Shown here piece by piece: positions 7,304 through 31,336 of a DNA stretch of 64,000 bases. The notes under the pieces are model-generated. The model made no database searches and was not told the origin of the DNA. It saw nothing but the letters and a program-made list of their open reading frames with translations. Source of the DNA: Lactiplantibacillus xiangfangensis (GTDB taxonomy: Bacteria; Bacillota; Bacilli; Lactobacillales; Lactobacillaceae). The DNA lies in assembly GCF_001438845.1 (NCBI RefSeq), contig NZ_JQCL01000080.1, positions 1 through 64,000 of the forward strand, in the 5' to 3' direction. The stretch's first letter is position 1; every line of letters begins with the position of its first letter. The translations under genes and the position numbers were made by a program.

Positions 7304-7480
7304 TCCGGCTGTCGCTGATAGTATGCGGTCGTGGGACCGGTCCAAGCCTGAGGAACGTCTTGCACCTCGTCCGGAATAATTGCAAAAAGCGCAATTGTCC
7401 CGGACCGTCCGTGGCCTAAGACCGGAAAAGCACCGGTCAAAAGCCACCTTCACGACCGATGCTATCAGCGACAGCCTCCG
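7304..7480. repeat. Structured intergenic element A, copy 1
   Basis: 177 bp from TCCGG to CCTCCG. The terminal arms GCTGTCGCTGATAG and CTATCAGCGACAGC are perfectly complementary. Inside are GCGGTCGTG/CACGACCG, a GGTCCAAG/CTTGCACC hairpin around the conserved loop CCTGAGGAACGT, a CAATTG-type hairpin (one arm imperfect), and GGCCTAAGACCGG...CCGGTC. Reading frames here are by-products of the GC-rich repeat. The downstream flank resembles that of copy 4. No known Rfam family comes to mind. Confidence 0.85.
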
Positions 7481-7508
7481 ATGATCCAATGAATTTTTAG
7501 AACGTATC

Positions 7509-7537
7509 AATAATACTGACGGGGCGACAGTATTATT
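7509..7537. other. Perfect 10-bp inverted repeat upstream of nth
   Basis: AATAATACTG and CAGTATTATT are separated by 9 bases (ACGGGGCGA). There is no T run, so it is not a standard terminator. It lies between element A copy 1 and the nth promoter region. Function unknown. Confidence 0.6.
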
Positions 7538-7720
7538 GGTAGGTGCTGGCGGCTTTTTATTGCAACTAAAATAATTTTAAAAAATTTTCTTTAACAAGTC
7601 TTACTGGGCATTTTTCGGGTAAGATAGAAGTAATTACTAGAGGTTGAAGCGTAGTCTTAATAAGGATTGGCTACACGTGACTTAGTTAACAACTTAAGCT
7701 TGAAAGGAGTGAAGTAGCGT

Positions 7721-8371
7721 ATGTTGAAGGACGAACAAATTGTATGGGCTATTCATCAAATGGAAAAAGAGATGGGGCCGGTGGGGCCATCTCTTGATTC
7801 GCGGACCCCGTTTCAGTACTTGGTGTCGGTGATTTTAAGTGCGCAGGCTACGGACGTTTCAGTCAATAAGGTGACCCCGGTACTATTTGACAAGTATCCA
7901 GAACCTAAGGATTTGATGGTGGCGGACGTCACCGATGTTGAGCAGATCATCAAAAGTGTTGGCTTGTTTCGGAATAAGGCTAAAAACATTATCAAAACGG
8001 CACGGATCGTTCACGAGGACCTGCACGACGTGGTGCCAACGGATCGCAAGGGCATCATGGCCTTGCCGGGTGCAGGGCGTAAGACGGCTAACGTGGTCCT
8101 AAGCGATGTCTTTGACCAGAATACGTTTGCGGTGGATACCCACGTTTCAGCAATTTCTAAGCGGTTACACTTTGTCGACCAAGCCGCGTCACCGCTGCAG
8201 GTTGAGCAAAAGATCGTTGGGGTGTTGGACCCTAAAGAATTACACCAAGCCCACCATACGATGATTGAATTTGGACGCAAATACTCCATGAAGCTCACAC
8301 CCGATCGGGAAGTTTGCCAATTGATTATTGACTGCGACAAATTGAACGAGGAAAACGAGTCTGGACTATAA
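7721..8371 (+). CDS. nth: Endonuclease III-like DNA glycosylase/AP lyase
   Basis: 216 residues from ATG 7721, preceded by GAAAGGAG. It removes oxidised pyrimidines and nicks abasic sites in base-excision repair. The LSAQATD motif, the helix-hairpin-helix LPGAGRKTANVVL with the catalytic Lys, and VDTHVSAISKRL with the catalytic Asp are intact. Odd: the C-terminal C-x6-C-x2-C-x5-C cluster that binds [4Fe-4S] in Escherichia coli Nth is absent; only VCQLIIDCDK with two Cys remains. This is therefore a cluster-less member of the family. Monocistronic, followed by element A copy 2. Confidence 0.9.
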   Translation: MLKDEQIVWAIHQMEKEMGPVGPSLDSRTPFQYLVSVILSAQATDVSVNKVTPVLFDKYPEPKDLMVADVTDVEQIIKSVGLFRNKAKNIIKTARIVHEDLHDVVPTDRKGIMALPGAGRKTANVVLSDVFDQNTFAVDTHVSAISKRLHFVDQAASPLQVEQKIVGVLDPKELHQAHHTMIEFGRKYSMKLTPDREVCQLIIDCDKLNEENESGL

Positions 8372-8455
8372 CTTAATAACTAAAGGTTGAAACTTAAATT
8401 TAAGAAACTGTTGCATCAATGTCTGGACCAACAAAATTAGCTATTTATAAGCTAT

Positions 8456-8636
8456 TCCGGTCGCAACTGATGACATGCGGTCGTGGGACCGGGCCTAGCC
8501 TGGGAAACGGTCTAGTCCTTCGCCCGGAACGATTACAAAAGGCACAATTGTCCCGGACCGTCCGTGGTGTAAGCCCGGCAAAAAAGCGCCGCGCCAACAC
8601 CACCTTCACGACCGATGTCATCAGTTACGGCCTCCG
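8456..8636. repeat. Structured intergenic element A, copy 2
   Basis: 181 bp from TCCGG to CCTCCG, downstream of nth. It keeps the fold of copies 1 and 3-5 with different bases. Outer arms AACTGATGACA/TGTCATCAGTT and GCGGTCGTG/CACGACCG pair. The 3' hairpin stem is GGTGT (8566-8570)/ACACC (8597-8601), where copy 3 has GGCCT/AGGCC. About 45 bases of downstream flank (to about 8680) also match copy 3, so the two form a subfamily. Confidence 0.85.
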
Positions 8637-8761
8637 ATTGTCTGATGGAGATAACAATAGTAAGATTATTCTGCCTGACGGAGCAATTGATTTAGGAATA
8701 ACAGCTAAAGGATGAAAGTCATAAAAACTGATATTAGCAACATACCAATATTAACAAAGTC

Positions 8762-8796
8762 GGTAAATTTGTTGCTTCCAGCTAAGTTGATCTTTC
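8762..8796. other. Probable empty insertion site for element A
   Basis: The sequence GGTAAATTTGTTGCTTCC joined to AGCTAAGTTG matches the two flanks of element A copy 5 (GGTAAACTTGTCGCTTCC and AGCTAAGGTG at 20593-20786) with nothing between. Both sites then run into a copy of element B. This looks like the unoccupied version of the same locus. Confidence 0.65.
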
Positions 8797-8825
8797 GATG
8801 AAAGTTGATTTATCTTGCTTTTAAC

Positions 8826-9012
8826 CAATCCTAGCGCAGCCGGCAGAACCAGTGGGCAGTGTCGGTCATGTTGGCTGGCGGTTTATGCCTGGCGACATGG
8901 CGGGGCGTCTTGGAAGACTTGGGCTTTTAGGCTTACAAGCGAGGCGGAAGCCCGTACCTTGGCTGTAGCCGACCCCACAGCCCACTGGTTCTGTCCGGCG
9001 GAGCGATGAAGA
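8826..9012. repeat. Structured intergenic element B, copy 1
   Basis: It begins AATCCTAGCGCAGCC. The inverted repeat GCCGGCAGAACCAGTGGGC (8839-8857) pairs with GCCCACTGGTTCTGTCCGGC (8980-8999), and the element ends at GGAGCGATGAAGAATC. Inner hairpins include GTCTT/AAGAC and GGGCTT/AAGCCC. It is near-identical to copy 2 at 20825-20990 except for about 20 extra bases around 8876-8900. It sits between the convergent nth and yidC genes. Confidence 0.85.
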
Positions 9013-9051
9013 ATCCTATGTGTCTAATTAATGCTATTAACCTTGAGTTAA

Positions 9052-9102
9052 TAAAAAGAAAACCGGCATCCCGATGAAAATCATCGAGGTGCCGGTTTGA
9101 CT
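9052..9102 (-). terminator. Terminator of yidC (minus strand)
   Basis: AAACCGGCATC...GGTGCCGGTTT with an inner CGAT/ATCG pair. On the minus strand the stem is followed by a T-rich tract (complement of AAAAAGAAAA). Confidence 0.75.
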
Positions 9103-9114
9103 TGTTTAAATCAA

Positions 9115-10050
9115 TTAGTTGCGGTGATGGCGTTGCTGCTTGCCAGCATTGCGACCCTTACCAGGGGTGTAGTTACGTGGCTTAGGCGTTGCGTCACTTT
9201 CAGTTGCATTAACTGGCTTAGCTTGTGCAACTGGCGCTGGAGTTGGGGTCTTGATGGGGTGCTTCTTCAGTTCAGCTTCAACTTCACGCCGAATCCGGGG
9301 GCGGAAGAAGTTGATGATGAGCGTTTGTAAGCAGGCGAATAACCCACCGACGAAGAAGTATAGCCCTAAACCAGCGGGTGCTGACATGGACACGAATAAG
9401 ATCATGATTGGACTCATGACGAGCATCATCCGCATTTGCTTCTTTTGATCATCCGGCAAACCAATCATTGAGAGGTAGCCTTGTGCCAAGTAAGACAAGA
9501 AGGCTAAGATGGCCAAAAGTAAACTGGATTTCCCTAAGGAGATCCCCATGAACGTGGCACTTTGCAACTCGGGTGAGAAGCGGATGGCGTAGTAAAGGGC
9601 TGAGAAGACGGGCAGTTGAATTAATAATGGTAAACAACCGATCCCACCAGTCATGCTAATGCCGTTTTCCTTGTAAAGCTGCATCATTTCGTTACTGATT
9701 GCAGCTTTTTCTTCCTGCGTTGTCGCAGCTTTTTGCCGGGCTTGAATCTTTTGCATCTGCGGTTTAACGGCAGACATTTTTTCTTGTTGGTACGTGGACT
9801 TGCGTTGTTGACTGATCATCATAGGTAGAAGTACTAACCGTACGATGACCGTCAGACCGATGATGGCCCAGCCGTAGTTATTGCCTAAAATTTGTGATAA
9901 CCATTGCATAACGGCTTGACCAGGACGTGCTAGGTAGTCGTAGACAAAGCCGTATGGTTTCCCAGACTTAGTTGTCTGTACACAGCCACTCAGAAATAAC
10001 GTCAGCGTAGTTAATGTCAACGCTAATGTGAGGCCTTTTTTAGATTTCAA
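9115..10050 (-). CDS. yidC: YidC/Oxa1 family membrane protein insertase
   Basis: 311 residues. A lipoprotein signal peptide ends in the lipobox LFLSGC (Cys about 23), typical of Gram-positive YidC/SpoIIIJ. The core has five membrane segments: the first ends in the conserved Arg region IVRLVLLPMMISQQR, followed by the cytoplasmic coiled-coil hairpin (QEKMSAVKPQMQKIQ), then GGCLPLLIQLPVFSALYYAI and the last helices. The tail is basic (RNAGKQQRHHRN), as in YidC2-type paralogs that contact ribosomes. It inserts proteins into the cytoplasmic membrane with or without Sec. Its neighbour acyP lies upstream on the same strand. Confidence 0.92.
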   Translation of the reverse strand: MKSKKGLTLALTLTTLTLFLSGCVQTTKSGKPYGFVYDYLARPGQAVMQWLSQILGNNYGWAIIGLTVIVRLVLLPMMISQQRKSTYQQEKMSAVKPQMQKIQARQKAATTQEEKAAISNEMMQLYKENGISMTGGIGCLPLLIQLPVFSALYYAIRFSPELQSATFMGISLGKSSLLLAILAFLSYLAQGYLSMIGLPDDQKKQMRMMLVMSPIMILFVSMSAPAGLGLYFFVGGLFACLQTLIINFFRPRIRREVEAELKKHPIKTPTPAPVAQAKPVNATESDATPKPRNYTPGKGRNAGKQQRHHRN

Positions 10051-10113
10051 TAGATCATAATCCCCTTTATTAAAGATATATAAACTCGATGATACTAAAC
10101 CTGAACGGGGATT

Positions 10114-10386
10114 TCAATTAGTTATCCGAAAATTGTGGTAGTTTTGTGGTTCAACGTCGTTAACGATGAGCTTGTTAACCTTACCAAAATCGGTCGGTGA
10201 TTGTTTGATCACGTCAATAAAGACTTGAACCCGTTGATCTTCGCCTTCCGCTTCAATGAATACGGAGCCATCCATTAAATTGCGAACAATTCCGTTGACA
10301 CCACACTTATCCGCGGCGACCTTTGTGGCCCAGCGAAAACCAACCCCTTGAACGCGGCCGCTGGCTTGCAGAGTTACTGCGCGCAT
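10114..10386 (-). CDS. acyP: Acylphosphatase
   Basis: 90 residues, the usual length for this alpha/beta sandwich enzyme, which hydrolyses acyl phosphates. The phosphate-binding loop GRVQGVGFRW with its catalytic Arg, and VRNLMDGSVFIEAEGE with the catalytic Asn, are both present. The minus-strand gene is separated by 63 bases from yidC and divergent from the RNA methyltransferase gene, a common arrangement in lactobacilli. Confidence 0.93.
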   Translation of the reverse strand: MRAVTLQASGRVQGVGFRWATKVAADKCGVNGIVRNLMDGSVFIEAEGEDQRVQVFIDVIKQSPTDFGKVNKLIVNDVEPQNYHNFRITN

Positions 10387-10487
10387 ACTGTCACTTCCTT
10401 TAATTGTAAATCATAATAACCCATACACTATATAATAGCATGGAAGTGTGATGCGGGCGATATGCTATACTTGAAAATAAATCGTGA

Positions 10488-10508
10488 GGTCTCTCAGCAT
10501 GAGAGACC
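10488..10508 (+). promoter_or_regulatory. Strong hairpin in the leader of the RNA methyltransferase gene
   Basis: GGTCTCTCA and TGAGAGACC form a perfect 9-bp stem with the loop GCA, about 30 bases before the GTG start and after a possible -10 (TATACT, 10465-10470). There is no T run, so it is not a terminator; it may affect transcript stability or translation. Confidence 0.5.
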
Positions 10509-10536
10509 CTGCAAGGACGAAAAGGAAGTTCATACC

Positions 10537-11307
10537 GTGGAAAAAATCAATTCATTACAAAACGTGCACGTTAAAGCGTGGAAAAAATTACAGACCAAAA
10601 AGGGCCGTAAGCAGCAGGGCATGTACCTATTAGACGGCTGGCACCTAGTTAACGAAGCCGTTAAAGCACATATTCCCGTTAAAACGTTACTGATTACCGA
10701 AAAACAATTGGCGACCGACCCGGACTTAACTAAGTTCCCGGCGTTGATTGAAATCTCTGAAGAGGTTGCGGCCCACATTAGCGCAACCGTTACGCCCCAA
10801 GGGGTATTTGCACTGGTTGTTTTGCCGGCAGCAGAGGACGATGAGTTAGCAAAGCTAGACCTAACCCGGCCGTGGTTATTACTCGATAACGTCCAAGATC
10901 CTGGTAATATCGGGACCATGGTGCGAACAGCGGATGCCGCTGGTTTTGCCGGGGTTGCGTTTGGACAGGGAACGGTTGACGTCCACCAACCAAAAGTTGA
11001 ACGGGCCATGCAAGGTAGCCAGTTCCATCTTCATTTAATTAGTACCGATTTAACGACCCTAGTTGAACGGTTGCATGCTGATAACGTCCCGGTGTACGGC
11101 TCGGAATTGAATCCGGAAGCCGTGCAGTATCAAGATGTTGACGCCCCCGCAGCTTTTGGCCTCGTGATGGGGAATGAAGGTAACGGGATGAGTAAGACGC
11201 TCTTAGCGCAGACGGATCAAAACTTATACATCCCAATTAAAGGGCGTGCGGAATCTTTAAATGTTGCGGTTGCAGCCGGGATTCTCATGTTCGGGTTATA
11301 CCACTAG
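10537..11307 (+). CDS. TrmH/SpoU-family RNA 2'-O-methyltransferase
   Basis: 256 residues from GTG 10537 (MEKINSLQN), chosen because AAAGGA at 10521-10526 precedes it; the longer frame upstream crosses the leader hairpin. The N-terminal RNA-binding subdomain (KAWKKLQTKKGRKQQGMYLLDG) is followed by the SPOUT domain with its three signatures: DNVQDPGNIGTMVRTADAAG, LVMGNEGNGMS and the knot end IPIKGRAESLNVAVAAGILMF. The family methylates ribose 2'-OH in rRNA or tRNA using S-adenosylmethionine; the target cannot be told from sequence. This gene commonly precedes pheST in Firmicutes, as here. Confidence 0.9.
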   Translation: MEKINSLQNVHVKAWKKLQTKKGRKQQGMYLLDGWHLVNEAVKAHIPVKTLLITEKQLATDPDLTKFPALIEISEEVAAHISATVTPQGVFALVVLPAAEDDELAKLDLTRPWLLLDNVQDPGNIGTMVRTADAAGFAGVAFGQGTVDVHQPKVERAMQGSQFHLHLISTDLTTLVERLHADNVPVYGSELNPEAVQYQDVDAPAAFGLVMGNEGNGMSKTLLAQTDQNLYIPIKGRAESLNVAVAAGILMFGLYH

Positions 11308-11407
11308 GTTACAATTAGTAAGAATGACGTTTAAATTGGGCAAAATACTTTTAAAGTTACTTACTTTTTAGTAGAATAGCGGTAGTTATTAACAAAGGGA
11401 GCTTTTA

Positions 11408-11914
11408 ATGAAAACTAATGCGTGGAAACAAGATTCTGAATACGTGGCGCTTGTTGCAGATTTGTTAGCTCAACCAGAAGTACAGCGGTTGGCAGAGTTT
11501 ACTCAGCACCATCATTCGAATCGCTTAGATCATTCAATTGCAGTTTCATATGATAGTTATGTTTTAGCGAAGAAATGGCATCTTAATACGACGGCAGTTG
11601 CTCGTGGTGGATTATTGCATGATTTGTTTTATTATGACTGGCGTGAAACCAAGTTTGATTTAGGGTCACACGCATTTATCCACCCACGGGTCGCGTTACG
11701 AAACGCTGAAAAGTTAACCAAATTAACACCGATGGAAAAGGATATCATTTTGAAGCACATGTTTGGGGCGACGTTAGCCGTTCCTAAATATCGAGAAAGT
11801 TTGCTCGTTTCCTTAGTCGACGATTATGAAGCAGAACATGAATTTTTTGGCCCACTACGGACGAAAGTGGCCAAACAGTTAGATCGGTTCCGAGGTAAGG
11901 TCTCCGCCGGTTAA
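11408..11914 (+). CDS. HD-domain phosphohydrolase-like protein
   Basis: 168 residues from ATG 11408 with AAAGGGAG upstream. The metal-binding pattern of HD proteins is visible: H in NRLDHSIAVS, the HD pair in GGLLHDLFYYDW, H in DIILKHMFG and D in LVSLVDDYEA. It is a compact cytoplasmic HD hydrolase of the type often annotated as uncharacterised in lactobacilli. The substrate is unknown. It is followed after 24 bases by the HxlR regulator on the same strand, so the two are probably co-transcribed. Confidence 0.8.
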   Translation: MKTNAWKQDSEYVALVADLLAQPEVQRLAEFTQHHHSNRLDHSIAVSYDSYVLAKKWHLNTTAVARGGLLHDLFYYDWRETKFDLGSHAFIHPRVALRNAEKLTKLTPMEKDIILKHMFGATLAVPKYRESLLVSLVDDYEAEHEFFGPLRTKVAKQLDRFRGKVSAG

Positions 11915-11938
11915 TCGAATTTTTTGGAGGTCATGCAT

Positions 11939-12301
11939 ATGTCAGAAATGATAGTTGATACGGTTGAAGACTCAGCCGTCGATTTTGAGCTGTGTCCCAA
12001 ATTTGAAAAGACTTTTTCCATTTTGGGTAAGAAGTGGAATGGTCTGATCATTGACGTTTTACTCGAAGACGGGCCACAACGTTTTAAGAACTTGGCACGG
12101 CGCATTCCTAAGTGTAGTGACCGGGTACTGGTGGTTCGCTTGAAAGAACTCGAAGCTAATGGGATTGTTAGTCGGGTCACGCATTGTGATTCCGCATTGA
12201 TTGAATACAGCTTAACGACCAAGGGGAAGGATCTCCGGCAAGTTATGGATACCGTCCACACTTGGTCTGATAAGTGGTTTAGTCCAACTCAGTGTAATTA
12301 A
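11939..12301 (+). CDS. HxlR-family winged-helix transcriptional regulator
   Basis: 120 residues from ATG 11939 (MSEMIVD), placed by GGAGG at 11926-11930 with 8-base spacing; TTG 11924 and ATG 11933 are too close to or upstream of that site. It shows the HxlR pattern: CPKFEKTFSILGKKWNGLII, then the recognition region RFKNLARRIPKCSDRVLVVRLKELE and the wing VSRVTHCDSALIEYSLTTKG. Three Cys could be redox-sensing in this family (inference). It follows the HD gene and precedes the pheS T-box leader, which belongs to its own transcript. Confidence 0.85.
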   Translation: MSEMIVDTVEDSAVDFELCPKFEKTFSILGKKWNGLIIDVLLEDGPQRFKNLARRIPKCSDRVLVVRLKELEANGIVSRVTHCDSALIEYSLTTKGKDLRQVMDTVHTWSDKWFSPTQCN

Positions 12302-12339
12302 TGGGTTGACGGAATTAGGGCTTTAGCCTAGACTTACAT

Positions 12340-12594
12340 TGTAGATAAAAGCTGTGACGAGAAATAGTAGTTAGGAGCGACGTCTTAGGGACGGGTGTCA
12401 TCGATTGTAAGCACCCCGGCGTTTAAGCTAGTGAATTCACTCTCTGAGCTGAAATTGGGCGTTTTTGATAACAAATAATTTTCCGGTCACCCGACCGTTA
12501 CTACGGGAAAAGTGCACGTTAGGATTGAATGCTGACGTGAACAAGGGTGGTACCGCGATGAACCTCGTCCCTTTTTGGGCGAGGTCTTTTTTTG
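12340..12594 (+). promoter_or_regulatory. T-box leader of pheST
   Basis: The antiterminator T-box AAGGGTGGTACCGCG lies at 12543-12557. Its TGGT (12548-12551) matches a discriminator A as in tRNA-Phe. A terminator CCTCGTCCC/GGGCGAGG (12563-12584) with a T run competes with it. A candidate Phe specifier codon TTC followed by A is at 12436-12438 in the Stem I region. Uncharged tRNA-Phe would stabilise read-through into pheS. The exact 5' end and specifier assignment are estimates. Confidence 0.92.
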
Positions 12595-12629
12595 TCGTCA
12601 AACGTTAATAAAAATATTGGAGGAAGCAT

Positions 12630-13676
12630 ATGAGTTTACAAGATCGGTTAACTGAATTACGTGATCAAGGCTTGGCCGACATTAAGTCCGCCGATGTGTT
12701 GAAAAAAGTCAACCAAGTTAAAGTCGATTTACTTGGTAAGAAGGGTCCCATTACGGAAGTTTTACGTGGGATGCGGGACTTAACGCCCGAAGAACGACCT
12801 AAAGTTGGTGCTTACGCCAACGAAGTGCGTGATCGCCTTCAAAATGCGATTGATCAACGGCGCGCAGAATTGGAACAATTAGCGGTCAATAAGCAATTGG
12901 CTGCGGAAAAATTAGACGTGACCTTACCAGGGCGTGAAGTTGCCCAAGGCCAACCACATGTCATCACGCAAATTATCACGGAATTAGAAGACCTATTCAT
13001 GGGAATGGGTTATCAAATCGTTGACGGTGATGAAGTTGAAGAAGATTACTACAACTTCGAACGCTTAAACTTGCCTAAGGATCACCCCGCACGGGATATG
13101 CAAGATACGTTCTACATCACTAAGGAAGTCTTATTACGGACCCAAACATCCGCTGACCAACCCCGGTCACTTGAAAACCATGATTTCTCCAAGGGTCCAT
13201 TAAAAGTGTTGTCACCCGGACGTGTTTATCGTCGCGATACCGATGATGCGACCCATTCACACCAATTCCATCAAATTGAAGGATTAGTTGTGGACAAGCA
13301 CATCACCATGGCCGACTTAAAAGGAACCTTAACGTTAGTTTCTAAGACGTTGTTCGGGGACCAATTCGACGTTCGCTTACGGCCAAGTTACTTCCCATTC
13401 ACGGAACCATCCGTTGAAGCCGACGTCACTTGCTTTAACTGTGGCGGTAAAGGTTGTGGCATCTGTAAACAAACCGGTTGGATCGAAGTATTAGGTGCCG
13501 GAATGGTTCATCCCCACGTGCTTGAAATGTCAGGGATCGACCCCGAAGTATACGGTGGGTTTGCCTTTGGCTTAGGCCCAGACCGTTTTGCAATGTTGAA
13601 ATACGGTGTTGATGATATCCGGAACTTCTACTTAAACGATGTTCGGTTCTTGTCACAGTTTTACAAGAAAGGTTAG
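12630..13676 (+). CDS. pheS: Phenylalanyl-tRNA synthetase alpha subunit
   Basis: 348 residues from ATG 12630 with GGAGG upstream. The N-terminal coiled coil (residues 1-90) is followed by the class II catalytic core: motif 2 region [24 protein letters not shown], and motif 3 [18 protein letters not shown] near the C terminus. [18 protein letters not shown] Cys cluster region is typical of bacterial PheS. It attaches Phe to tRNA-Phe as an alpha2beta2 tetramer with PheT, which starts 11 bases downstream. Confidence 0.97.
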
Positions 13677-13687
13677 GAGGAGTCCAC

Positions 13688-16105: not shown

Positions 16106-16151
16106 ATTGTTGTCTAAAAGGCAACGCTAAGAATGGCCACTTGCAAGTTAT

Positions 16152-16328
16152 TCCGGTTGCCACTGATAACATGCGGTCGTGGGACCGGGTCAAGCCTGAG
16201 GTGCGGTCTTGCCCCTCGCCCGGAGCAATTATAAAAAGCGTAATTGTCCCGGACCGTCCGTGGCCTAAGACCGGAAAATCACCGGTCAAGGCCACCTTCA
16301 CGACTGATGCCATCAGTGGCAACCTCCG
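16152..16328. repeat. Structured intergenic element A, copy 3
   Basis: 177 bp from TCCGG to CCTCCG, just after pheT. Outer arms GTTGCCACTGAT and ATCAGTGGCAAC pair, with GCGGTCGTG/CACGACTG within. The inner hairpin GGGTCAAG/CTTGCCCC encloses the loop CCTGAGGTGCGGT. The 3' hairpin GGCCT (16262-16266)/AGGCC (16289-16293) has a second stem GACCGG/CCGGTC. The flank to about 16375 matches that of copy 2. Confidence 0.85.
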
Positions 16329-16432
16329 ATTATCCGACAGTAATAACGATAGTAAAGTTATTTTAAGCGGAGTCGGGTAGTGGTGGTGTGATGTGCCGGT
16401 AGTGATGAAAATTTAAATCTTTAGTGGTTATT

Positions 16433-16478
16433 AAAAGTAGTGCCAACAACTGTGATGGTTGCGGGCACTACTTTTTTA
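16433..16478. terminator. Bidirectional-type terminator upstream of the 16569 gene
   Basis: AAAAGTAGTGCC...GGCACTACTTTTTT, with an inner CAAC/GTTG pair and A/T runs on both sides. It probably ends the pheST transcript after element A. Confidence 0.8.
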
Positions 16479-16568
16479 TGTGGCCGAGTCTAAATAATCA
16501 TGTGTTGCCAATCATACTGTGGTTTGATACATTTATCGGATAGCAAATTCTAAGTTAAGGAAACTAGC

Positions 16569-16916: not shown

Positions 16917-16927
16917 AGGTTAAATCT

Positions 16928-17003
16928 AAAAAAAGACAAGTTCACATGACCATCCGTTAAGCTTCAGAAGTGAGATGGGTCGTAATGAACTTGCTTTTTT
17001 TAT
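16928..17003. terminator. Shared terminator between convergent genes
   Basis: AAAAAAAG and ACAAGTTCA on the left pair with TGAACTTG and CTTTTTTT on the right, with further pairing inside (ACCATC/GATGGGT). Suited to both the membrane gene (+) and the transpeptidase gene (-). Confidence 0.8.
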
Positions 17004-17004
17004 T

Positions 17005-19265: not shown

Positions 19266-19284
19266 GAACGGGGCTAACTTTAAA

Positions 19285-19917: not shown

Positions 19918-19925
19918 ACAGAATT

Positions 19926-19992: not shown

Positions 19993-20027
19993 ATATAACT
20001 ATTACAGGAATTAGAGGAGTGGAAACA

Positions 20028-20510: not shown

Positions 20511-20523
20511 AGCTATTAACGTC

Positions 20524-20566
20524 AAAAACGCATTCACAACGAATCAGCTGTGAATGCGTTTTTTTA
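20524..20566 (+). terminator. Terminator of greA
   Basis: AACGCATTCACA and TGTGAATGCGTT form a perfect 12-bp stem followed by TTTTT. Confidence 0.9.
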
Positions 20567-20607
20567 GGCTTTTAAAATTAAATATCTAGTTTGGTAAACT
20601 TGTCGCT

Positions 20608-20776
20608 TCCGGCCGACCATGATTTCACCTGCCGTGGCGACCGGACTAAGCCTGGAAAACGGTCTTAGTCCTCGCTTGCAAGCCGAAACCCCACGTCTCG
20701 CAAGACGTCGGTGGCGTAAACCGGAAGTACACCGGTCAACGCCACTTTCACGGCAGATTTATCATGGTCGACCTCC
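20608..20776. repeat. Structured intergenic element A, copy 5 (diverged variant)
   Basis: About 166 bp inserted between CTTCC and AGCT. The terminal arms are GGCCGACCATGAT and ATCATGGTCGACC, with TGCCGTG/CACGGCA inside. The hairpin GGACTAAG/CTTAGTCC keeps the conserved loop CCTGGAAAACGGT, and the 3' hairpin GGCGT (20713-20717)/ACGCC (20739-20743) has ACCGG/CCGGT. The primary sequence of the outer arms differs from copies 1-4, but the fold and TCCGG...CCTCC ends are kept. It is followed by element B copy 2. Confidence 0.85.
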
Positions 20777-20824
20777 AGCTAAGGTGTTTTTTTTGTCAAA
20801 ATTGATTTAGATTATTTTTAGCTA

Positions 20825-20990: not shown

Positions 20991-21013
20991 ATTTTAATGC
21001 TTTCAAGCTTTAG

Positions 21014-21721: not shown

Positions 21722-22176
21722 AGTGAAGACTCCTTTTGTTCTAAGATGAGTTTTAGTGGTCGGTAGTAGCGCCGCGAGACGTATAACTGCTTCGGCGATT
21801 GTTGAAACGCTAGCAAGTTACCAGTGAGGGTCTTAGTGAGCGAGTAGACGCGCTGCACGTTCACGACCGCAGACTTTGAGACCCGTTGAAAGTTAGTTGG
21901 TAGGGTCGTGGCAATTGCCGTTAAGGAGTCACTAGCCCGGTAAACGGCATCGGGTGTGTGGACCGCAACGTTGTGACCGGTCGCTTCGATGAACATAATG
22001 GCGGTTAATGGTAATGCGACGGCCTGTCCGTGTTGTGAAACCGGTAACGTAGCCGGCGTCAGCGAAATTTTTGCCAACGCGGCAACCAGTTGCTCCCGTT
22101 GGGGAAAGTCTTCCGGAATCGTTAAGGTCAGGCGGGGTTCAGTTGAATTTTTGTCAGTTACGACCCGGACTTTCAC
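21718..22176 (-). CDS. LytTR-family DNA-binding regulator
   Basis: 152 residues from GTG 22176 (MKVRVVTDK), chosen because AGGAGG (22184-22189) is 7 bases upstream. There is no receiver domain. A short N-terminal region of about 50 residues is followed by the LytTR domain: FIEATGHNVAVHT, NFQRVSKSAVVNVQRVYSL and the terminal LYVSRRYYRPLKLIL. LytTR proteins of this short type typically regulate their own operon and bind paired imperfect repeats. It overlaps the LiaF-like gene by four bases. Confidence 0.85.
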   Translation of the reverse strand: MKVRVVTDKNSTEPRLTLTIPEDFPQREQLVAALAKISLTPATLPVSQHGQAVALPLTAIMFIEATGHNVAVHTPDAVYRASDSLTAIATTLPTNFQRVSKSAVVNVQRVYSLTKTLTGNLLAFQQSPKQLYVSRRYYRPLKLILEQKESSL

Positions 22177-22360
22177 GGGACCACCTCCTAAGATGTTATC
22201 AGTACACCATATTTTTAAAAGGTTGTAAATCAACATTGCCTAACTGGTTTATTTTACGTCCTAAGTGGTCAGAACTGATTTGCTCAATGAGTTGCAATGT
22301 TGCGTTCTGGGGATAAAACGGGCACAATGATTGTAAACGATTACAGAGTGAGGTGGCAAC

Positions 22361-22663
22361 ATGAAAATTACGATTACGGATGCGGCCAGTAAATGGTTTC
22401 ATGATGATATGGGTGTAACGACCGGTAATGGGGTGCGCTTTTTTGGTAAGACTTACGGTAAGACCGCCGTTCACAGTGGTTTTTCAATCGGTTTAATGCG
22501 CGATGATCAGCCACATAACCCCATCGGCGAAGCCCAAAAAGATGGCGTCAATTATTACGTCAATGACCGGGATGAATGGTTCTTTAAGGGTTATGACTTA
22601 AACGTCGATTTTGATCCCGATAACGACGGGCCTAAGTATGATTACATTCCAAACGCGGAATAG
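22361..22663 (+). CDS. HesB/IscA-like (YneR-type) protein
   Basis: 100 residues from ATG 22361 with GAGGTGG upstream. The fold pattern matches the short HesB-like family of Firmicutes: MKITITDAASKWFHDDMG, VRFFGKTYG, SGFSIGL and DEWFFKGYDLNVDFD. It lacks the three Cys of true A-type iron-sulfur carriers, so an iron-sulfur role should not be assumed. Single gene, divergent from the LytTR operon, ended by a very long hairpin at 22691. Confidence 0.75.
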   Translation: MKITITDAASKWFHDDMGVTTGNGVRFFGKTYGKTAVHSGFSIGLMRDDQPHNPIGEAQKDGVNYYVNDRDEWFFKGYDLNVDFDPDNDGPKYDYIPNAE

Positions 22664-22690
22664 GCTTAATCGGTTAAAGCAGCAATTAAA

Positions 22691-22743
22691 CACTAAAGGC
22701 GTCTCCCAGATGAAATTCATTTGGGAGACGCCTTTAGTGTTTT
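22691..22743. terminator. Long bidirectional terminator
   Basis: CACTAAAGGCGTCTCCCA and TGGGAGACGCCTTTAGTG form a perfect 18-bp stem with a 13-base loop and a TTTTG tail. It serves convergent genes at 22361 (+) and 22759 (-). Confidence 0.85.
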
Positions 22744-22758
22744 GCTTATAAGCCTTAA

Positions 22759-25398: not shown

Positions 25399-25649
25399 AA
25401 ATGCCACCTCAATCTCTTTAGAAATTCGCAACTGAAGGTGAAACTTGCAGCTACTATTTTATGTCTACCGTATAGGATAGCATAAGAAACGTCCTACTGG
25501 TATTAAGCCTTTATTATGAAAGGTTTAATCCTAAAGAGAATCAGTTTTAAAAGCATGATATCGATTCGTGGTGTCAAAAAGGCTCAGGTAGGGTTGATCC
25601 TGTGTTATGGTTATAGACATATAATGAAATTAATTTTACGTACAATAAA

Positions 25650-25772
25650 AAAGTCCCTCGTCAGCAAAAGTGACGGGGACCGCTTGGCAAACGGACAATG
25701 TGCACTCAATCCGGAGTGACATGATCCGTGCTAACAATGGGTTAGGGTGCGAGATACCCTAACATCTTATAT
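25650..25772 (-). promoter_or_regulatory. Candidate structured leader with terminator upstream of yfhO
   Basis: Read on the minus strand, a perfect hairpin GTTAGGGT/ACCCTAAC (25741-25763) is followed by an imperfect hairpin GGA...CACTC/GAGTG...TCC. Then comes a terminator GTCCC(C)GTCA/TGACGAGGGAC (25653-25680) ending in TTTTTT. It lies about 250 bases before the yfhO start on that strand. The layout suggests transcription attenuation, but no standard riboswitch or T-box core (no TGGN box) is recognisable. Confidence 0.4.
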
Positions 25773-25846
25773 ATTCGCAAATTTAACGATAGTCATTTTT
25801 TTCGTGGAAAAATTTAAAATTCAGTTTTTATACAGGTTTTAGCGAA

Positions 25847-25948
25847 GGCGTGCAGGATTAGTGTGTTGTGAAGGCAATATCAGACGGTGGTCCTCAGCCG
25901 ACTGATATTGCGGGGGCCGTCCCCCATAGCACACTAGTCCTGCACGCC
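25847..25948. repeat. Structured intergenic element C (long nested hairpin)
   Basis: A 19-base arm GGCGTGCAGGATTAGTGTG (25847-25865) pairs with CACACTAGTCCTGCACGCC (25930-25948) with one mismatch. Inside are CAATATCAG/CTGATATTG (25875-25883/25902-25910) and GGGGG-CCGT-CCCCC (25912-25925). It resembles elements A and B in design but not in sequence. Only one copy is present here. It lies in the long intergenic region before the PBP2B gene and has no T run. Confidence 0.75.
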
Positions 25949-26181
25949 AAGCGGCTAATGGTCCTAGCGATTCGTTAATTAGACGTTGAGATAAGTATTT
26001 TTAAAGATGCTTATAAATTTGTTTCACCAGGAATGCGAAAGAATAGGATTTATAGTAAACTATTGATTGGTAAAAGCGCGTAGGCTAAAATAGCATAGGT
26101 AGCGCAATTGTTTAGGATTATTTAGTAACATCTGGCGGATTTTAGGAAAAGTTCACCAAATTAAGAACGGGAGCCTGAGAA

Positions 26182-28212
26182 TTGAAACTGTTTAAGAAAA
26201 TTACTGCGAATCGTGATCCTAATAAGTCACATATTCCGTTTCGGTTAAACTTTTTGTTCTTCATCGTCTTTTTGCTGTTTGCTGCGTTGATTGGACAGCT
26301 GGCTTACTTGCAAGTCGATTACGGACAAAAGTTTCGGACGGAAGTTAACTCCGCCAATAATACGACGGCGACGGCTAACGTTCAGCGGGGGTCGGTCTAT
26401 GATTCTGCCGGACGGGTCTTAGTCGGGAATAAATCGCATCAAGCGATTCAATACACGAAGGGACTAAACGTTGCTTCTACTAAGATGTACTCGGTTGCGA
26501 CCAAGTTAAGTGAGTATTTGGATATTCCAACGAATACCTTAACCGACCGAAATCTAGCCGACTACTATTTAGCTAGTGCTAGCAATTTGAAAGCTGTCTC
26601 TAAGAAGGTCAAAACTTCATCCGACGAAGACGTTGTGTACGCGCGGGAAGTGGCCTATGCGGAGAAGAACTTGATCAATAACTTCACACCGCAGCAGAAA
26701 AAAGCCGCAGCCATCTATTATAAGATGAACTCGGCGTACTCATTATCAACCGTTAACATCAAGTCGACGGGTGTAAGCAGTACGGAGCTAGCGCAAATCG
26801 GTGAACACCAATCCGAAATGCCTGGTGTGAAAGTTGGGACGAGTTGGACGCGGAGTTATCCAAACGGGACCGATTTGAGTAGTGTACTCGGGACCGTGAC
26901 GACTGAAAAGCAAGGGTTACCAAGTGATGACGTTAAGACGTTATTAGCTGAAGGCTATTCCCGTGATGATTCAGTTGGGCAAAGTCAACTTGAAAAGCAA
27001 TACGAAAATGTCTTGCGCGGAACCAAATCCCAGACTGAGGTTAAAACTCAGGATGGTGTGATTCAAAAAGAAGTTGAAAAGTATGGCGGTTCTAAGGGTG
27101 ATAACATCCAGTTGACCGTTAATGCGAAGTTCCAAAAACAAGTTCAAAGCATTATGAAGTCCGTTGTAAGTTCTAATACCGGATCTAATCCTTACATGTC
27201 TGGTGGGTATGCCGTGGTAATGAACCCAAGTACCGGTGCTATTTACGCATTGGCCGGGGTTGACCGGGATACTTCAACCGGGAAGATGACGGAAAATGCT
27301 CTCGGGACGATTAACCAATCAATCGTTATGGGGTCAGTTGTTAAGGGTGCCACCGTCATGGGTGCCTTACAAGATGGTGTGATTACACCAACGAACAGTA
27401 CGCTGACCGATACGCCAATTAAGTTAGCCGGAACGGCTTCTAAGTCTTCCTGGTTCAACAAGAGCGGTAGTGCGAGCCTAGCGTTGAATGCATCAACGGC
27501 GATGGAAGTTTCTTCCAACTCGTACATGATGCAATTGGCTATGAAGGAAGGTAACTATTCCTACGCTTCCGGGAAGGCGTTAACGATGTCTGCATCAGTC
27601 TTCTCGAAGTTACGGGGCTACTTCAATGAATTTGGTCTCGGAGTTAAGACTGGGATTGACTTGCCAGGTGAAGCAACCGGGTATCAAGGGATTGCTAACC
27701 GGGCTAATATTGGTAAAGCACTTGACTTGTCCTACGGGAACTACGATTCTTATACGACCATTCAAGTGGCGCAATATATTTCTACAATGGCCAATGGTGG
27801 TCGACGAATCGCGCCACACGTTGTCGGTGCCATTACTGGGACCAATGCTAACGGGACGCAAGGGAAGGTCAAGACCAACGTTAGTCCACGGGTCTTAAAC
27901 ACGATTGACGTGCCTTCTTCATACTTTGATGTTGTTCATCAAGGTTACTGGGACGTGGTTCACGGGAACAGTGCCTATAAGACTGGTTCCGCGTTGTCCA
28001 GCTTGTCACCAGCGGTCGCAGCTAAGTCTGGGACTGCCGAAACGTTCCACGGTTCAACTTCGACGGAAACGTTGAGTTTAGCCACTTACGCACCTTTCAA
28101 GAATCCTAAGGTCGCGATGGCCATCGTCTTCCCAGGGATGTCTGGTGGGGCGGCTAATACAACGGCTGCCACCCAAATCTACAAAGCTTTCTGGAAGTAT
28201 TATAATAAGTAA
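26182..28212 (+). CDS. Class B penicillin-binding protein (PBP2B-like transpeptidase)
   Basis: 676 residues from TTG 26182 with GGGAG about 9 bases upstream. A short cytoplasmic N terminus and one membrane helix (about 24-46) are followed by a dimerisation domain (NVQRGSVYDSAGRVL) and the transpeptidase domain. The active-site motifs are SVVK (Ser385), SSN (about 444-446) and KSGT (Lys615). It cross-links septal or peripheral peptidoglycan with a SEDS glycosyltransferase. The Gly/Ser/Asn-rich ending has no PASTA domains. The promoter must lie after element C. A terminator follows. Confidence 0.92.
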   Translation: MKLFKKITANRDPNKSHIPFRLNFLFFIVFLLFAALIGQLAYLQVDYGQKFRTEVNSANNTTATANVQRGSVYDSAGRVLVGNKSHQAIQYTKGLNVASTKMYSVATKLSEYLDIPTNTLTDRNLADYYLASASNLKAVSKKVKTSSDEDVVYAREVAYAEKNLINNFTPQQKKAAAIYYKMNSAYSLSTVNIKSTGVSSTELAQIGEHQSEMPGVKVGTSWTRSYPNGTDLSSVLGTVTTEKQGLPSDDVKTLLAEGYSRDDSVGQSQLEKQYENVLRGTKSQTEVKTQDGVIQKEVEKYGGSKGDNIQLTVNAKFQKQVQSIMKSVVSSNTGSNPYMSGGYAVVMNPSTGAIYALAGVDRDTSTGKMTENALGTINQSIVMGSVVKGATVMGALQDGVITPTNSTLTDTPIKLAGTASKSSWFNKSGSASLALNASTAMEVSSNSYMMQLAMKEGNYSYASGKALTMSASVFSKLRGYFNEFGLGVKTGIDLPGEATGYQGIANRANIGKALDLSYGNYDSYTTIQVAQYISTMANGGRRIAPHVVGAITGTNANGTQGKVKTNVSPRVLNTIDVPSSYFDVVHQGYWDVVHGNSAYKTGSALSSLSPAVAAKSGTAETFHGSTSTETLSLATYAPFKNPKVAMAIVFPGMSGGAANTTAATQIYKAFWKYYNK

Positions 28213-28228
28213 AAAAATTGTCTGATAA

Positions 28229-28262
28229 AGTGCCAGTATCTTAATTGATACTGGCATTTTTA
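28229..28262 (+). terminator. Terminator of the PBP2B gene
   Basis: TGCCAGTATC and GATACTGGCA form a perfect 10-bp stem with a TTTTTA tail. Confidence 0.9.
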
Positions 28263-28338
28263 ATGCATTAATGATATAGTAGTTTGAGTTAAGGGCTCTG
28301 GCCCTGGAATACGCGAATGAGTTTGGAGGGTCAACACT

Positions 28339-28488
28339 ATGCGGGTACACATTACACTAGAATGTACTGAATGCCACGAACGTAACTACTTATCTTCAAA
28401 GAACCGTCGGAACAATCCTGACCGGGTTGAATTTAAGAAGTACTGTCCTCGTGAACATAAAGTGACATTACATCGCGAAACAAAATAA
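28339..28488 (+). CDS. rpmG: 50S ribosomal protein L33
   Basis: 49 residues from ATG 28339 with GGAGGG upstream. [34 protein letters not shown] and a Lys/Arg-rich end match L33. It retains one Cys pair (CTEC) plus a single Cys (KYCP) followed by His, so the second pair of the zinc ribbon is incomplete (CPREH). A G/C-rich hairpin with T run follows at about 28487-28514. Confidence 0.93.
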
Positions 28489-28515
28489 CAACGGGGTTAC
28501 CTGTTGTTTTTTCTG
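28485..28515 (+). terminator. Probable terminator of rpmG
   Basis: AACAACGGGG and CCTGTTGTT pair across TTA and lead into TTTTTTCT. Confidence 0.55.
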
Positions 28516-28629
28516 TAACATTGTCATTGGACAATGGGTTTCTCATTTGTTGGCAACTGCCGGATGTTTATTCGGCATGTTAATGAATGAGATTTTTTTA
28601 TATCATCAATCATGCAGGGGGCGTAAGAA

Positions 28630-29196
28630 GTGGAGAAAAAAGCGTTTCGACAACAACAGATTCAGCGACTAAGTCAAATGACGGCTGAAGAGCGAGTTGC
28701 ACAGAATCTGTCCTTACAAAATCAATTATTTACTAGCACGGCATGGCAACAAGCTCAAATCGTTGCAATCACAATTAGTAGTGCGATTGAAGTTGATACC
28801 CGACCGTTTGTGAAGCGCGCGTGGGATGAGGGCAAGACGGTCGTTATTCCTAAAACGTTACCACACCGTCAGATGGCTTTTTATCCGTATACGGATGCTA
28901 GTCAGTTGACCCGGACGAAATTTGGCATCTTAGAGCCCGCTGACGGGACGCCCGTTGCAAAGCAGGCCATTGACCTGATCCTGGTTCCAGGACTGGGATA
29001 TAGCCGCACAGAGTGTGCTCGCATCGGATTTGGTGGTGGCTACTATGATCGTTATCTCGCTGACTTTACTGGGGTAAAGTTGACACTGGCTTACCGCCAG
29101 ATGGTCTTTGATCATCCAGAGTGGCCGGTTGATGAGTTTGATATTTTATTGGACCAGTTGCTCGTTGCAAAGGATGATAATAATGAACACAATTAA
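28630..29196 (+). CDS. 5-formyltetrahydrofolate cyclo-ligase
   Basis: 188 residues from GTG 28630. It converts 5-formyl-THF to 5,10-methenyl-THF using ATP in folate one-carbon metabolism. An N-terminal Lys/Arg region (KKAFRQQQIQRL) is followed by PKTLPHRQMAFYP, DLILVPGLGYSRTECARIGFGGGYYDRYL (the nucleotide/folate-binding GFGGGYYDRYL motif) and the C-terminal LAYRQMVFD. Its stop lies inside the rhomboid gene (14-base overlap), so the two form an operon that continues with the YqgQ-like and glucokinase genes. Confidence 0.93.
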   Translation: MEKKAFRQQQIQRLSQMTAEERVAQNLSLQNQLFTSTAWQQAQIVAITISSAIEVDTRPFVKRAWDEGKTVVIPKTLPHRQMAFYPYTDASQLTRTKFGILEPADGTPVAKQAIDLILVPGLGYSRTECARIGFGGGYYDRYLADFTGVKLTLAYRQMVFDHPEWPVDEFDILLDQLLVAKDDNNEHN

Positions 29197-29869
29197 ACGG
29201 TGGTGGCAAACAGAAGCAGCGGTGACGCAGATTATTTTAGCCATCACGGTCGGAATCTTCTTAATTGAATGGTTACTGCTAGGTGACAGCGGCATCATGC
29301 TGTTTAACGCACTGGGCGCTAAGAACAATCAGGCGATCGTTGCTGGGGAGTGGTGGCGTTTCATCACACCGATGTTTTTGCACATGAGCCTAACGCACAT
29401 TGCGTTGAACGCGGTGGTGATCTACTTCATGGGGATTCAAATTGAAGCGATGTTTGGTCACTGGCGAATGCTACTTATTTACTTCATTGGTGGGATTAGC
29501 GGTAATATTTTGAGCTTTGCGCTGTCCAATAATCAGTCGGTTGGGGCAAGTACCGCGTGTTTCGCCTTATTTGGGGCCTTTTTAATGGTTGGTGAATCCT
29601 TCTGGGAGAACCCAGTTATTCGACAATTATCCGGCCGGTTTTTATTATTAACGGTCATGAACCTGGTCTTTGATATGTTTTCCACGGGGATTGATATCTG
29701 GGGTCACATCGGTGGGCTAGTTGGTGGATTTTTAATCGCTTACACACTTGGCGTACCGCGGATTGGAAAAATTTCTAATGTTAAACGCGTCGTAGCGACC
29801 GTTGTCTTAGTAATTGCATGGCTTGCACTGTTAAAAATGGGTTTTACAAATACTAAATTAACTGTATAA
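29183..29869 (+). CDS. Rhomboid-family intramembrane serine protease
   Basis: 228 residues from ATG 29183 (MNTIKRWWQTE) with AAAGGAT upstream, overlapping the cyclo-ligase end. It has six to seven membrane helices. The catalytic Ser is in GASTACFALFG, the catalytic His in WGHIGGLVGG, and the conserved HMSLTHIALNAVVIYFMG (L1 loop, HxxxN) is present. It corresponds to the GluP/YqgP-type gene that sits beside the cyclo-ligase, YqgQ and glucokinase genes in Bacillus and lactobacilli. It cleaves membrane proteins within the bilayer; the substrate is unknown. Confidence 0.92.
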   Translation: MNTIKRWWQTEAAVTQIILAITVGIFLIEWLLLGDSGIMLFNALGAKNNQAIVAGEWWRFITPMFLHMSLTHIALNAVVIYFMGIQIEAMFGHWRMLLIYFIGGISGNILSFALSNNQSVGASTACFALFGAFLMVGESFWENPVIRQLSGRFLLLTVMNLVFDMFSTGIDIWGHIGGLVGGFLIAYTLGVPRIGKISNVKRVVATVVLVIAWLALLKMGFTNTKLTV

Positions 29870-29887
29870 TTAATCGAGGATATGCAC

Positions 29888-30109
29888 ATGAAAACACTTT
29901 ACGACGTCCAGCAATTACTTAAAAAGTTTGGTGTGTACGTTTACGTTGGCAAGCGGATTTGGGACATTGAACTCATGGCCATTGAGATTGATCATTTATA
30001 TCAGGCCGGAGTTATCGATGCTAAAATGTACGCTCGCGTAAAACTCGTATTGAGTCATGAGCACCGGCTAGAAGAAGAACATGAGCGCGCAGAAGACGCG
30101 CATCATTAA
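29888..30109 (+). CDS. YqgQ-like small protein (DUF910)
   Basis: 73 residues from ATG 29888 (MKTLYDVQQLLKKFG), which lies 7 bases after CGAGGA; ATG 29882 is too close to the site. A helical protein with VYVGKRIWDIELMAIEIDHLYQAG, the pattern of the YqgQ family. It ends in a charged tail (EEEHERAEDAHH). It is always found between the rhomboid and glucokinase genes in related bacteria; its function is unknown. Confidence 0.85.
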   Translation: MKTLYDVQQLLKKFGVYVYVGKRIWDIELMAIEIDHLYQAGVIDAKMYARVKLVLSHEHRLEEEHERAEDAHH

Positions 30110-30126
30110 TGGAGGGATTTGGCAAC

Positions 30127-31089
30127 ATGGATCGCAAATTAATCGGGGTCGACCTTGGTGGTACGACGACTAAATTCGCTATTTTAACAGAAAATGGTGA
30201 CATTCAACAAAAATGGAGTATTGAAACCACGATTTTAGACGAGGGCGCACACATCGTCCCTAACATCATCGATTCAATTAACCATCACATCGACCTTTAC
30301 AAGATGGACCGTTCTCAATTTGTTGGTATCGGGATGGGAACTCCTGGGACCGTTGATTTGGAAAAAGGGACCGTTATTGGCGCCTACAACTTAAACTGGA
30401 AGACCTTACAACCAGTTAAGAAACAAATCGAAGAAGGCACTGGCATCAAGTTTACGTTGGATAATGACGCTAACGTCGCTGCTTTAGGCGAACGTTGGAA
30501 GGGTGCCGGCGAAAACGGTAACGACGTTGTCTTCGTAACACTTGGTACTGGTGTCGGCGGTGGGATCATCGCTGATGGCCACTTGTTACACGGAACTGCT
30601 GGTGCAGCCGGTGAAATTGGTCACGTTACCGTTGAACCAAATGGCTACATGTGTACTTGTGGTAAGAAGGGTTGTTTGGAACAATACGCTTCCGCAACTG
30701 GTGTGGTTCACGTCGCTCGCGACATGGCCGAAGAATTCTCTGGTAGCTCTAAGTTAAAACAACTCTTAGACAACGGTGAAGAAATCAGTTCAAAGATTAC
30801 CTTTGATTTAGCTAAAGAAGGCGACACCTTAGCAAAGAGCGTGGTTGACCGTGTTTCTTACTACTTAGGTTTAGCATTAGCTAACGTTGGTAACACGATG
30901 AACCCATCATTCATCATTATCGGTGGTGGTGTTTCCGCTGCCGGTGACTTCTTATTGAAGCAAGTTGAAAGTTACTTCAAGCAATTTACGTTCCCAACAG
31001 TTCGTAATACCACGATCTTGAAGCTAGCCGTTTTAGGTAACGATGCTGGTGTGATTGGGGCTGCTTCATTAGCACAACGCTTTATTTAA
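30127..31089 (+). CDS. glkA: Glucokinase (ROK family)
   Basis: 320 residues from ATG 30127 (MDRKLIGVDLGG), with GGAGGG 8 bases upstream. The phosphate-binding DLGGTTTKF, catalytic Asp in DNDANVAALGE, TLGTGVGGGII and the ROK zinc motif CTCGKKGCLEQYAS are all present. It phosphorylates glucose to glucose-6-phosphate and supports carbon-catabolite signalling. Last gene of the cyclo-ligase/rhomboid/yqgQ operon, followed by a terminator and element A copy 4. Confidence 0.95.
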   Translation: MDRKLIGVDLGGTTTKFAILTENGDIQQKWSIETTILDEGAHIVPNIIDSINHHIDLYKMDRSQFVGIGMGTPGTVDLEKGTVIGAYNLNWKTLQPVKKQIEEGTGIKFTLDNDANVAALGERWKGAGENGNDVVFVTLGTGVGGGIIADGHLLHGTAGAAGEIGHVTVEPNGYMCTCGKKGCLEQYASATGVVHVARDMAEEFSGSSKLKQLLDNGEEISSKITFDLAKEGDTLAKSVVDRVSYYLGLALANVGNTMNPSFIIIGGGVSAAGDFLLKQVESYFKQFTFPTVRNTTILKLAVLGNDAGVIGAASLAQRFI

Positions 31090-31107
31090 AGATATAATCG
31101 TATTGAA

Positions 31108-31136
31108 AAGGTCCGGCGAATGCCGGGCCTTTTTTG
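31108..31136 (+). terminator. Terminator of glkA
   Basis: GGTCCGGC and GCCGGGCC with the tetraloop GAAT, followed by six T. Confidence 0.9.
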
Positions 31137-31154
31137 GTACATAGAGATACTTAG

Positions 31155-31336
31155 TCCGGTCGCCACTGATAACACGCGGCCGTGGGACCGGGTTAAGCCT
31201 GAGGAGCGGTCTTAACCCTCGCCCGGAACAATTGCAAAAAACACAATTGTCCCGGACCGTCCGTGATGTAAGGTCGGCAAAGAAAACGCCGCCCCAACAT
31301 CACCTGCACGACCGATGTTATCAGTGGCAACCTCCG
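31155..31336. repeat. Structured intergenic element A, copy 4
   Basis: 182 bp from TCCGG to CCTCCG. The outer arms GTCGCCACTGATAACA and TGTTATCAGTGGCAAC pair nearly perfectly. The hairpin GGGTTAAG/CTTAACCC is perfect around CCTGAGGAGCGGT, and CAATTG/CAATTG is perfect. The 3' hairpin has GATGT (31265-31269)/ACATC (31297-31301). It is the clearest copy of the family and lies between the convergent glkA and oxidoreductase genes. Confidence 0.88.

Follow-up and report, generated by a model that had tools for sequence, protein, structure and literature searches.

Folded intergenic repeats of Lactiplantibacillus xiangfangensis as probable modules of a small non-autonomous transposon

The DNA analysed here (the window) comprises positions 1 to 64,000 of contig NZ_JQCL01000080.1 of Lactiplantibacillus xiangfangensis (assembly GCF_001438845.1) and carries five copies of a strongly folded sequence of about 180 nt. 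The explanation that best covers the whole of the evidence, and which we consider very probable, is that these five sequences are one module, module A, of a miniature inverted-repeat transposable element (MITE), a small non-autonomous transposon. The folded copies are real, but they are pieces of a transposon spread through several Lactiplantibacillus genomes and not free-standing RNA genes. The assignment to a transposable element follows from terminal inverted repeats (TIRs), target duplications of 7-8 bp, presence or absence at orthologous sites and the existence of an autonomous element of the IS4 family of insertion sequences (IS) with the same 14-bp TIR. A sequence-only reading of the window had proposed a discrete noncoding RNA family with ends of its own, which was not borne out, the folded unit being a module inside a larger TIR-bounded, target-duplicating and site-polymorphic element. 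That reading rightly recognised a repeat family that does not code for protein, and it missed a second module (module B), the TIRs, the target duplication and the membership in a mobile element.

Folded copies in the window

Sequence comparison and folding confirmed five copies at the positions originally proposed, with common ends (TCCGG...CCTCC), a mean column identity of 84% and a common fold, in which a long closing stem bears three hairpins. With 4-5 bases of flank included at either end, copy 5 has a folding energy of -84.4 kcal/mol (z -6.2), and none of 200 shuffled sequences came as low. The copies, with their state in the related genome G004, are as follows.

7304..7480, + strand: module A copy 1, after the prenyltransferase gene; 193 bits with the covariance model; a truncated A at the same place in G004
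8456..8636, + strand: module A copy 2, after nth, within the composite element 8380-9047
16152..16328, + strand: module A copy 3, after pheT; also in G004
20608..20777, + strand: module A copy 4, diverged subtype, after greA; also in G004
31155..31336, + strand: module A copy 5, after the glucokinase gene; no A copy there in G004

All five begin 47-98 bp past the ends of open reading frames (ORFs), in keeping with the proposed location just downstream of prenyltransferase, nth, pheT, greA and glkA genes. The best NCBIfam assignments of these ORFs are, for copies 1-5, 1,4-dihydroxy-2-naphthoate prenyltransferase, nth, pheT, greA and ROK glucokinase, the prenyltransferase and nth assignments scoring slightly below the curated cut-offs. 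Copy 4 reaches 94 bits against 174-182 for copies 1, 2, 3 and 5, and an eight-T run follows shortly past its module A. The stem examples first given for copies 4 and 5 had been interchanged: GATGT/ACATC and GGGTTAAG/CTTAACCC belong to copy 5 (31155), GGCGT/ACGCC and GGACTAAG/CTTAGTCC to copy 4 (20608).

Element architecture and target duplications

The element consists of a left arm beginning with the TIR CTAAAGGTTGAAAG, module A, a spacer of mostly 20-60 nt, module B, and a right arm ending in the inverted TIR. Module B is about 173 nt long, is structured and folds independently of A. Model R1 matches it on the opposite strand (E down to 3e-13), and by eye a motif AGCC...GGTCT is found in the first hairpin of both modules, so that A and B look like inverted, diverged relatives. 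The corresponding features of the window are listed below.

8373..8379, unstranded: left target-site duplication TTAATAA; a single copy in G004
8380..9047, + strand: complete composite element of 668 bp after nth; absent from G004
8380..8393, + strand: left TIR, CTAAAGGTTGAAAC
8705..8718, + strand: a further TIR-like start, CTAAAGGATGAAAG, indicating that two elements are nested or lie in tandem
8833..9005, + strand: module B of the composite; R1 match on the minus strand (L152 2615-2782, E 3e-13)
9034..9047, - strand: right TIR, CTATTAACCTTGAG on the + strand
9048..9054, unstranded: right target-site duplication TTAATAA
20830..20978, + strand: module B of the copy-4 element
21000..21013, - strand: right TIR of the copy-4 element, CTTTCAAGCTTTAG on the + strand
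25841..25915, + strand: remnant of module B (33 bits), at a place where G004 carries an A+B copy

The 14-base TIR, with at most one mismatch, has 57 matches in the own genome (G000) and 35 in G004, as against 1 and 2 for the reversed pattern, and is also over-represented relative to the reversed control in seven further congeners. Nineteen convergent paired-TIR copies, including two pairs of orthologous sites, are 136-619 bp long and lack a transposase. A 7-bp target duplication with at most one mismatch flanks 13 of these 19 (11 exact; shuffle mean 1.2), and two carry an exact 8-bp duplication. A second set drawn from genomes G009 and G015 (n=19) gave duplications with at most one mismatch of 7 bp in 6/19 and of 8 bp in 7/19.

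The internal make-up also varies. The second element of the composite (8700-8840 compared with 20560-20800) is without an A module, and its junction TTCC/AGCTAAG looks, by eye, like the product of a deletion between TCC repeats such as those that flank A in copy 4. At loci L048, L103, L131 and L135, of which L048 and L131 are one site, two facing A modules replace A and B.

Presence and absence between relatives

G004, about 93% identical to the window region, lacks 8380-9047, and TTAATAA, which occurs twice in the window on either side of this element, is found there once. An A+B copy of G004 sits where the window keeps only the B remnant, and after the glucokinase gene an A copy is missing from G004, where only a B-like remnant lies further along. 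Both genomes share copies 3 and 4, copy 1 is truncated in G004, and one orthologous site has a quite different B hairpin.

Shared sites differ in other ways as well. The A-B pair at the orthologous site L034/L097 stands in opposite orientation in G000 and G004, suggesting inversion or separate insertion, and two insertion sites common to these genomes hold elements of different internal length (612 and 136 bp at L294/L299; 251 and 619 bp at L288/L295), differences that we read as internal deletions of inserted elements.

An autonomous IS4-family element

Autonomous elements with the same 14-bp TIR, 1565 bp long in G008 and 1567 bp in G020 (L303, L308), contain a single large ORF, 451 or 457 aa long, whose product is a DDE transposase of the IS4 family and matches NCBIfam NF049925 (IS4) at E 2e-144 and 6e-138. 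The G020 copy is flanked by an exact target duplication, ATAGGAG, the six MITEs examined in G020 combine perfect TIRs with A and/or B, and homologues or broken pieces occur in four further congeners. Since the TIRs match and the duplications match in size, it is likely that a transposase of the IS4 type mobilises the MITE in trans. An autonomous partner inside the own genome or G004 was sought and rejected, there being no convergent TIR pair 1-3 kb apart (TIR with at most one mismatch) and no transposase match. Several contigs of G008 and G018 start less than about 80 bp from a TIR, as expected for collapsed recent IS or MITE copies.

Family size and distribution

BLAST with copy 5 returned at least 40 long matches in the own genome, and the window together with fetched loci yields at least 43 own-genome copies of module A, each above 90 bits. 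The search of Lactobacillaceae genomes with a covariance model, which the sequence-only reading had suggested, does recover many copies: a model built from 41 own-genome copies found matches in 13 of 60 genomes (E 0.001, stricter filters), namely the own genome, 11 of the 20 congeners and a single genome from a different genus of the family. Two congeners have 98 and 143 model matches, counts that can include B modules. An 18-base core was found in Lactiplantibacillus pingfangensis (many stretches), L. nangangensis and a metagenome-assembled Lactobacillus genome, and once each in seven unrelated species, where it likely reflects chance. Overlap with an ORF of at least 110 aa by more than 100 bp was noted, as a raw count, for 12 of 136 A copies. 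Carriage by plasmids or phages was considered and discarded; no copy was found on either, and the sole plasmid match covers query bases 1-184 of 501, which is the glucokinase gene.

The absence of a known RNA family claimed earlier also stands, no Rfam family reaching threshold over any copy anywhere in the window; in permissive Rfam scans, all matches to copy 5 and to four other elements stayed below threshold. Elsewhere in the window, a T-box leader above the Rfam threshold lies at 12345-12575, 55 bp upstream of the ORF 12630-13676, which precedes pheT.

Covariation of the fold

The structure scored for module A comprises six helices and 53 pairs. Across 41 of the 43 own-genome copies (alignment A2, two truncated copies being left out), both partners change in 34 of the 53 pairs and pairing holds in 95.5% of cells; none of 500 shuffles reached any of five measures, and slid partners are only 28-46% paired. 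Both-sided change affects 40 of the 53 pairs among 103 distinct copies from other genomes, in an alignment that was fitted to the model and so leans towards it. Alignment A3 holds 107 matches at E <=1e-18 from 91 chosen loci, with 14 loci of more distant genomes and 7 of unrelated species left out, and the G000 and G004 copies are not all independent. By eye, bulges, internal loops and the loop motif AGCC...GGTCT are kept across copies. The observation that the stems differ in sequence while staying paired thus extends to the family, where covariation over many copies is far above chance.

Departures from Watson-Crick pairing

Selection on an RNA strand should favour G-U over A-C as a replacement for Watson-Crick pairs. 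In module A, on pairs predicted from both strands, the G-U:A-C count is 34:45 in the own genome and 89:100 in other genomes, whereas control RNase P RNA (15 genus sequences) gives 19:3. Pairs that are at least 70% Watson-Crick show 41:68 and 98:166 for A and 30:8 for RNase P, and the states common to at least five A3 copies are 33 alternative Watson-Crick, 8 G-U and 10 A-C. Because G-U and A-C are thus about equally frequent, unlike in RNase P RNA, pairing in DNA, or copying within palindromes, is likelier than a function as single-stranded RNA. Of the earlier idea that selection acts on an RNA or cruciform fold, the strong pairing-preserving change is upheld, and the nearly strand-symmetric departures shift its interpretation away from RNA. 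Higher G-U:A-C ratios for RNase P, 23 (28 sequences) and 40 (15 sequences), were set aside as inflated, their pairs coming from the plus-strand fold, a count for which 29 of 36 matches had been used. A strand difference in folding energy (minus strand of A stabler in 140 of 144 copies) was likewise dismissed as largely base composition (8.9 kcal/mol in shuffled sequences versus 11.9, own set).

Six orthologous A pairs, 90-97% identical and about as diverged as their surroundings, show 6 double Watson-Crick changes, where about 0.4 would be expected from the single-change rate, beside 11 changes involving G-U and 10 to A-C; the structure was taken from the G000 copy, so that A-C in that copy is uncounted. 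The rate of change at paired sites was below half of that at unpaired sites. With the orthologous pairs as diverged as their surroundings, little suggests that the host maintains individual inserted copies, but there are some indications that pairs are repaired within such copies, either through selection or through arm copying.

Insertion sites

A hairpin and T-run precede many insertions by no more than about 30 nt. By a fixed rule, applied after removal of two orthologous duplicates and one back-to-back TIR pair, an intrinsic terminator stands beside 13 of 25 sites (the autonomous copies account for two); among 4,000 non-coding positions drawn at random the proportion is 6.8% (p 1e-9). The corresponding figure for the G009 and G015 set, with a slightly wider fold window, is 8/19. 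Survival of harmless insertions may contribute to this association. Where the upstream gene points at A, the module follows at a median of 81 bp, and the location downstream of genes that the sequence-only reading described fits the places where the element inserts or survives. On contig C1 of G020, 13 of the 17 listed A copies point against the replication fork, with the terminus assumed half way; replication direction, considered as the cause of the orientation bias described below, does not explain co-orientation with genes.

Weighing of explanations

Several findings count against the MITE explanation or its proposed details. In the own genome module B accompanies 29 of 43 A copies and a recognised left arm only 12 of 43, so that many copies are truncated or diverged, or another carrier exists. 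Module A is co-oriented with genes, with 50 co-oriented and 13 opposed copies among tandem gene pairs (p 3e-6; 15:4 in the own genome, 35:9 in the other-species set), which a strand-neutral role in DNA does not predict. This count used 95 of the 107 A3 matches, 93 of them distinct, after removal of 12 that were short, cut, partial or duplicated, and it includes some sites common to G000 and G004. Hairpin 3 has 59 G-U against 12 A-C in A3. Module B gives 26:7 when shared pairs are counted and 34:33 with the other set. Dead copies decaying neutrally would likewise accumulate symmetric mismatches, which could mask selection on RNA in the source copies. As to the partner, the G008 autonomous copy has no clear target duplication, no IS4 transposase match was found in the own genome or G004 (E 1e-10), and the autonomous IS contains neither A nor B and thus supplies no origin for the modules. 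The putative IS4 link draws on the TIR, the duplication size and co-occurrence in the genus.

Part of this evidence would suit a new family of structured noncoding RNA, or of regulatory RNA in 3' untranslated regions, carried by the transposon but selected as RNA. The massive covariation, the fold (z -6.2), the sense orientation downstream of genes and the G-U preference of hairpin 3 are what such a family would show. Yet the G-U:A-C balance of A departs from that of RNase P, the model finds nothing in 9 of 20 congeners at E 0.001 (stricter filters), orthologous sites differ among close relatives, and the orthologous A pairs are no better conserved than their surroundings. Several copies, moreover, sit behind a terminator-like hairpin and T-run, and in G009 (14:7) and G015 (5:3) the bias in orientation falls short of significance. 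We give such a family only a slim chance, and an RNA gene is an unlikely reading of the five copies. The same bias would also be explained if the modules were transcription insulators or terminators that render insertion beside genes harmless, a role with which the 3'-end position, the very stable folds and the eight-T run after A in copy 4 agree. This is rather improbable: inspection of the listed flanks by eye shows no U-tract that regularly comes after A or B, and many insertions already lie behind a terminator.

A different process, in which the two arms of a palindrome (and also separate copies) exchange sequence through template switching or gene conversion, could generate compensatory changes with little selection on the fold, and we regard it as a possible, minority explanation. 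It agrees with the strand-symmetric pattern and the scarcity of intermediates in A3, with the excess of double Watson-Crick changes in the orthologous pairs and with the orthologous site whose B hairpin is quite different, but wholesale arm copying would erase the bulges, internal loops and AGCC...GGTCT motif that are kept.

Under the preferred MITE explanation, a transposase of the IS4 type would move the element in trans and insert it just downstream of intrinsic terminators. Source copies would need paired DNA (hairpin or cruciform) in their modules, for mobility or for staying harmless, the upkeep of the fold would perhaps be aided by local copying between hairpin arms, and inserted copies would then decay. 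A more specific proposal, which we advance tentatively and hold to be somewhat doubtful, is that spread of the MITE depends on the folded DNA modules themselves: two inverted multi-hairpin modules of about 175 nt, unrelated to the partner IS, may serve in cis as structures, formed in single-stranded or cruciform DNA, that the IS4-type transposase or the replication fork reads, in combination with insertion beside a terminator hairpin. If so, DNA structure rather than RNA would be the selected trait.

Relation to known elements and significance

Folded intergenic repeats near the 3' ends of genes are familiar as REP-type palindromes, which the present element resembles in this respect. SPRITE repeats, as PMC3049150 describes them, share the likeness; the present element differs from both in being far longer, multi-branched and TIR-bounded. 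MITEs mobilised in trans by IS are represented in the same source by RUP with IS630-Spn1 and Nezha with ISNpu3-like elements (PMC3049150), which are likewise short, non-coding, multicopy and folded, make target duplications and have TIRs matching an autonomous IS. Relative to RUP and Nezha as described there, the present element has an IS4-family partner, 7-8-bp duplications, terminator-adjacent insertion and two inverted modules of about 175 nt, each with its own fold. BOX of Streptococcus pneumoniae is, in the same account, also modular, intergenic, present in many copies and extensively structured, over-represented between convergent genes and thought to be parasitic (PMC3049150); its composition boxA-boxB-boxC sets it apart, by description, from an element whose A and B look like inverted relatives. 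With IS4-family insertion sequences (NF049925) the MITE shares the 14-bp TIR, and the G020 IS copy has a 7-bp duplication; unlike them it has no transposase, the similarity being confined to the TIR region, and modules A and B are missing from the IS. The open-licence literature, covered largely at the level of abstracts and with PMC3049150 and PMC2267715 consulted, yielded no description of such an element in Lactiplantibacillus. The feature is real and, within that literature, undescribed. It belongs most naturally among the MITEs, as a new variant that has two inverted structured modules and an IS4-family partner.

RNA-style covariation among intergenic repeats need not mean a noncoding RNA, for a transposon can carry such covariation, and the balance of G-U to A-C on strand-fair pairs helps to separate the two. 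The partner IS makes the mechanism testable. With tens of copies per genome and up to 143 model matches, this repeat family shapes the intergenic DNA of Lactiplantibacillus, a genus used in food.

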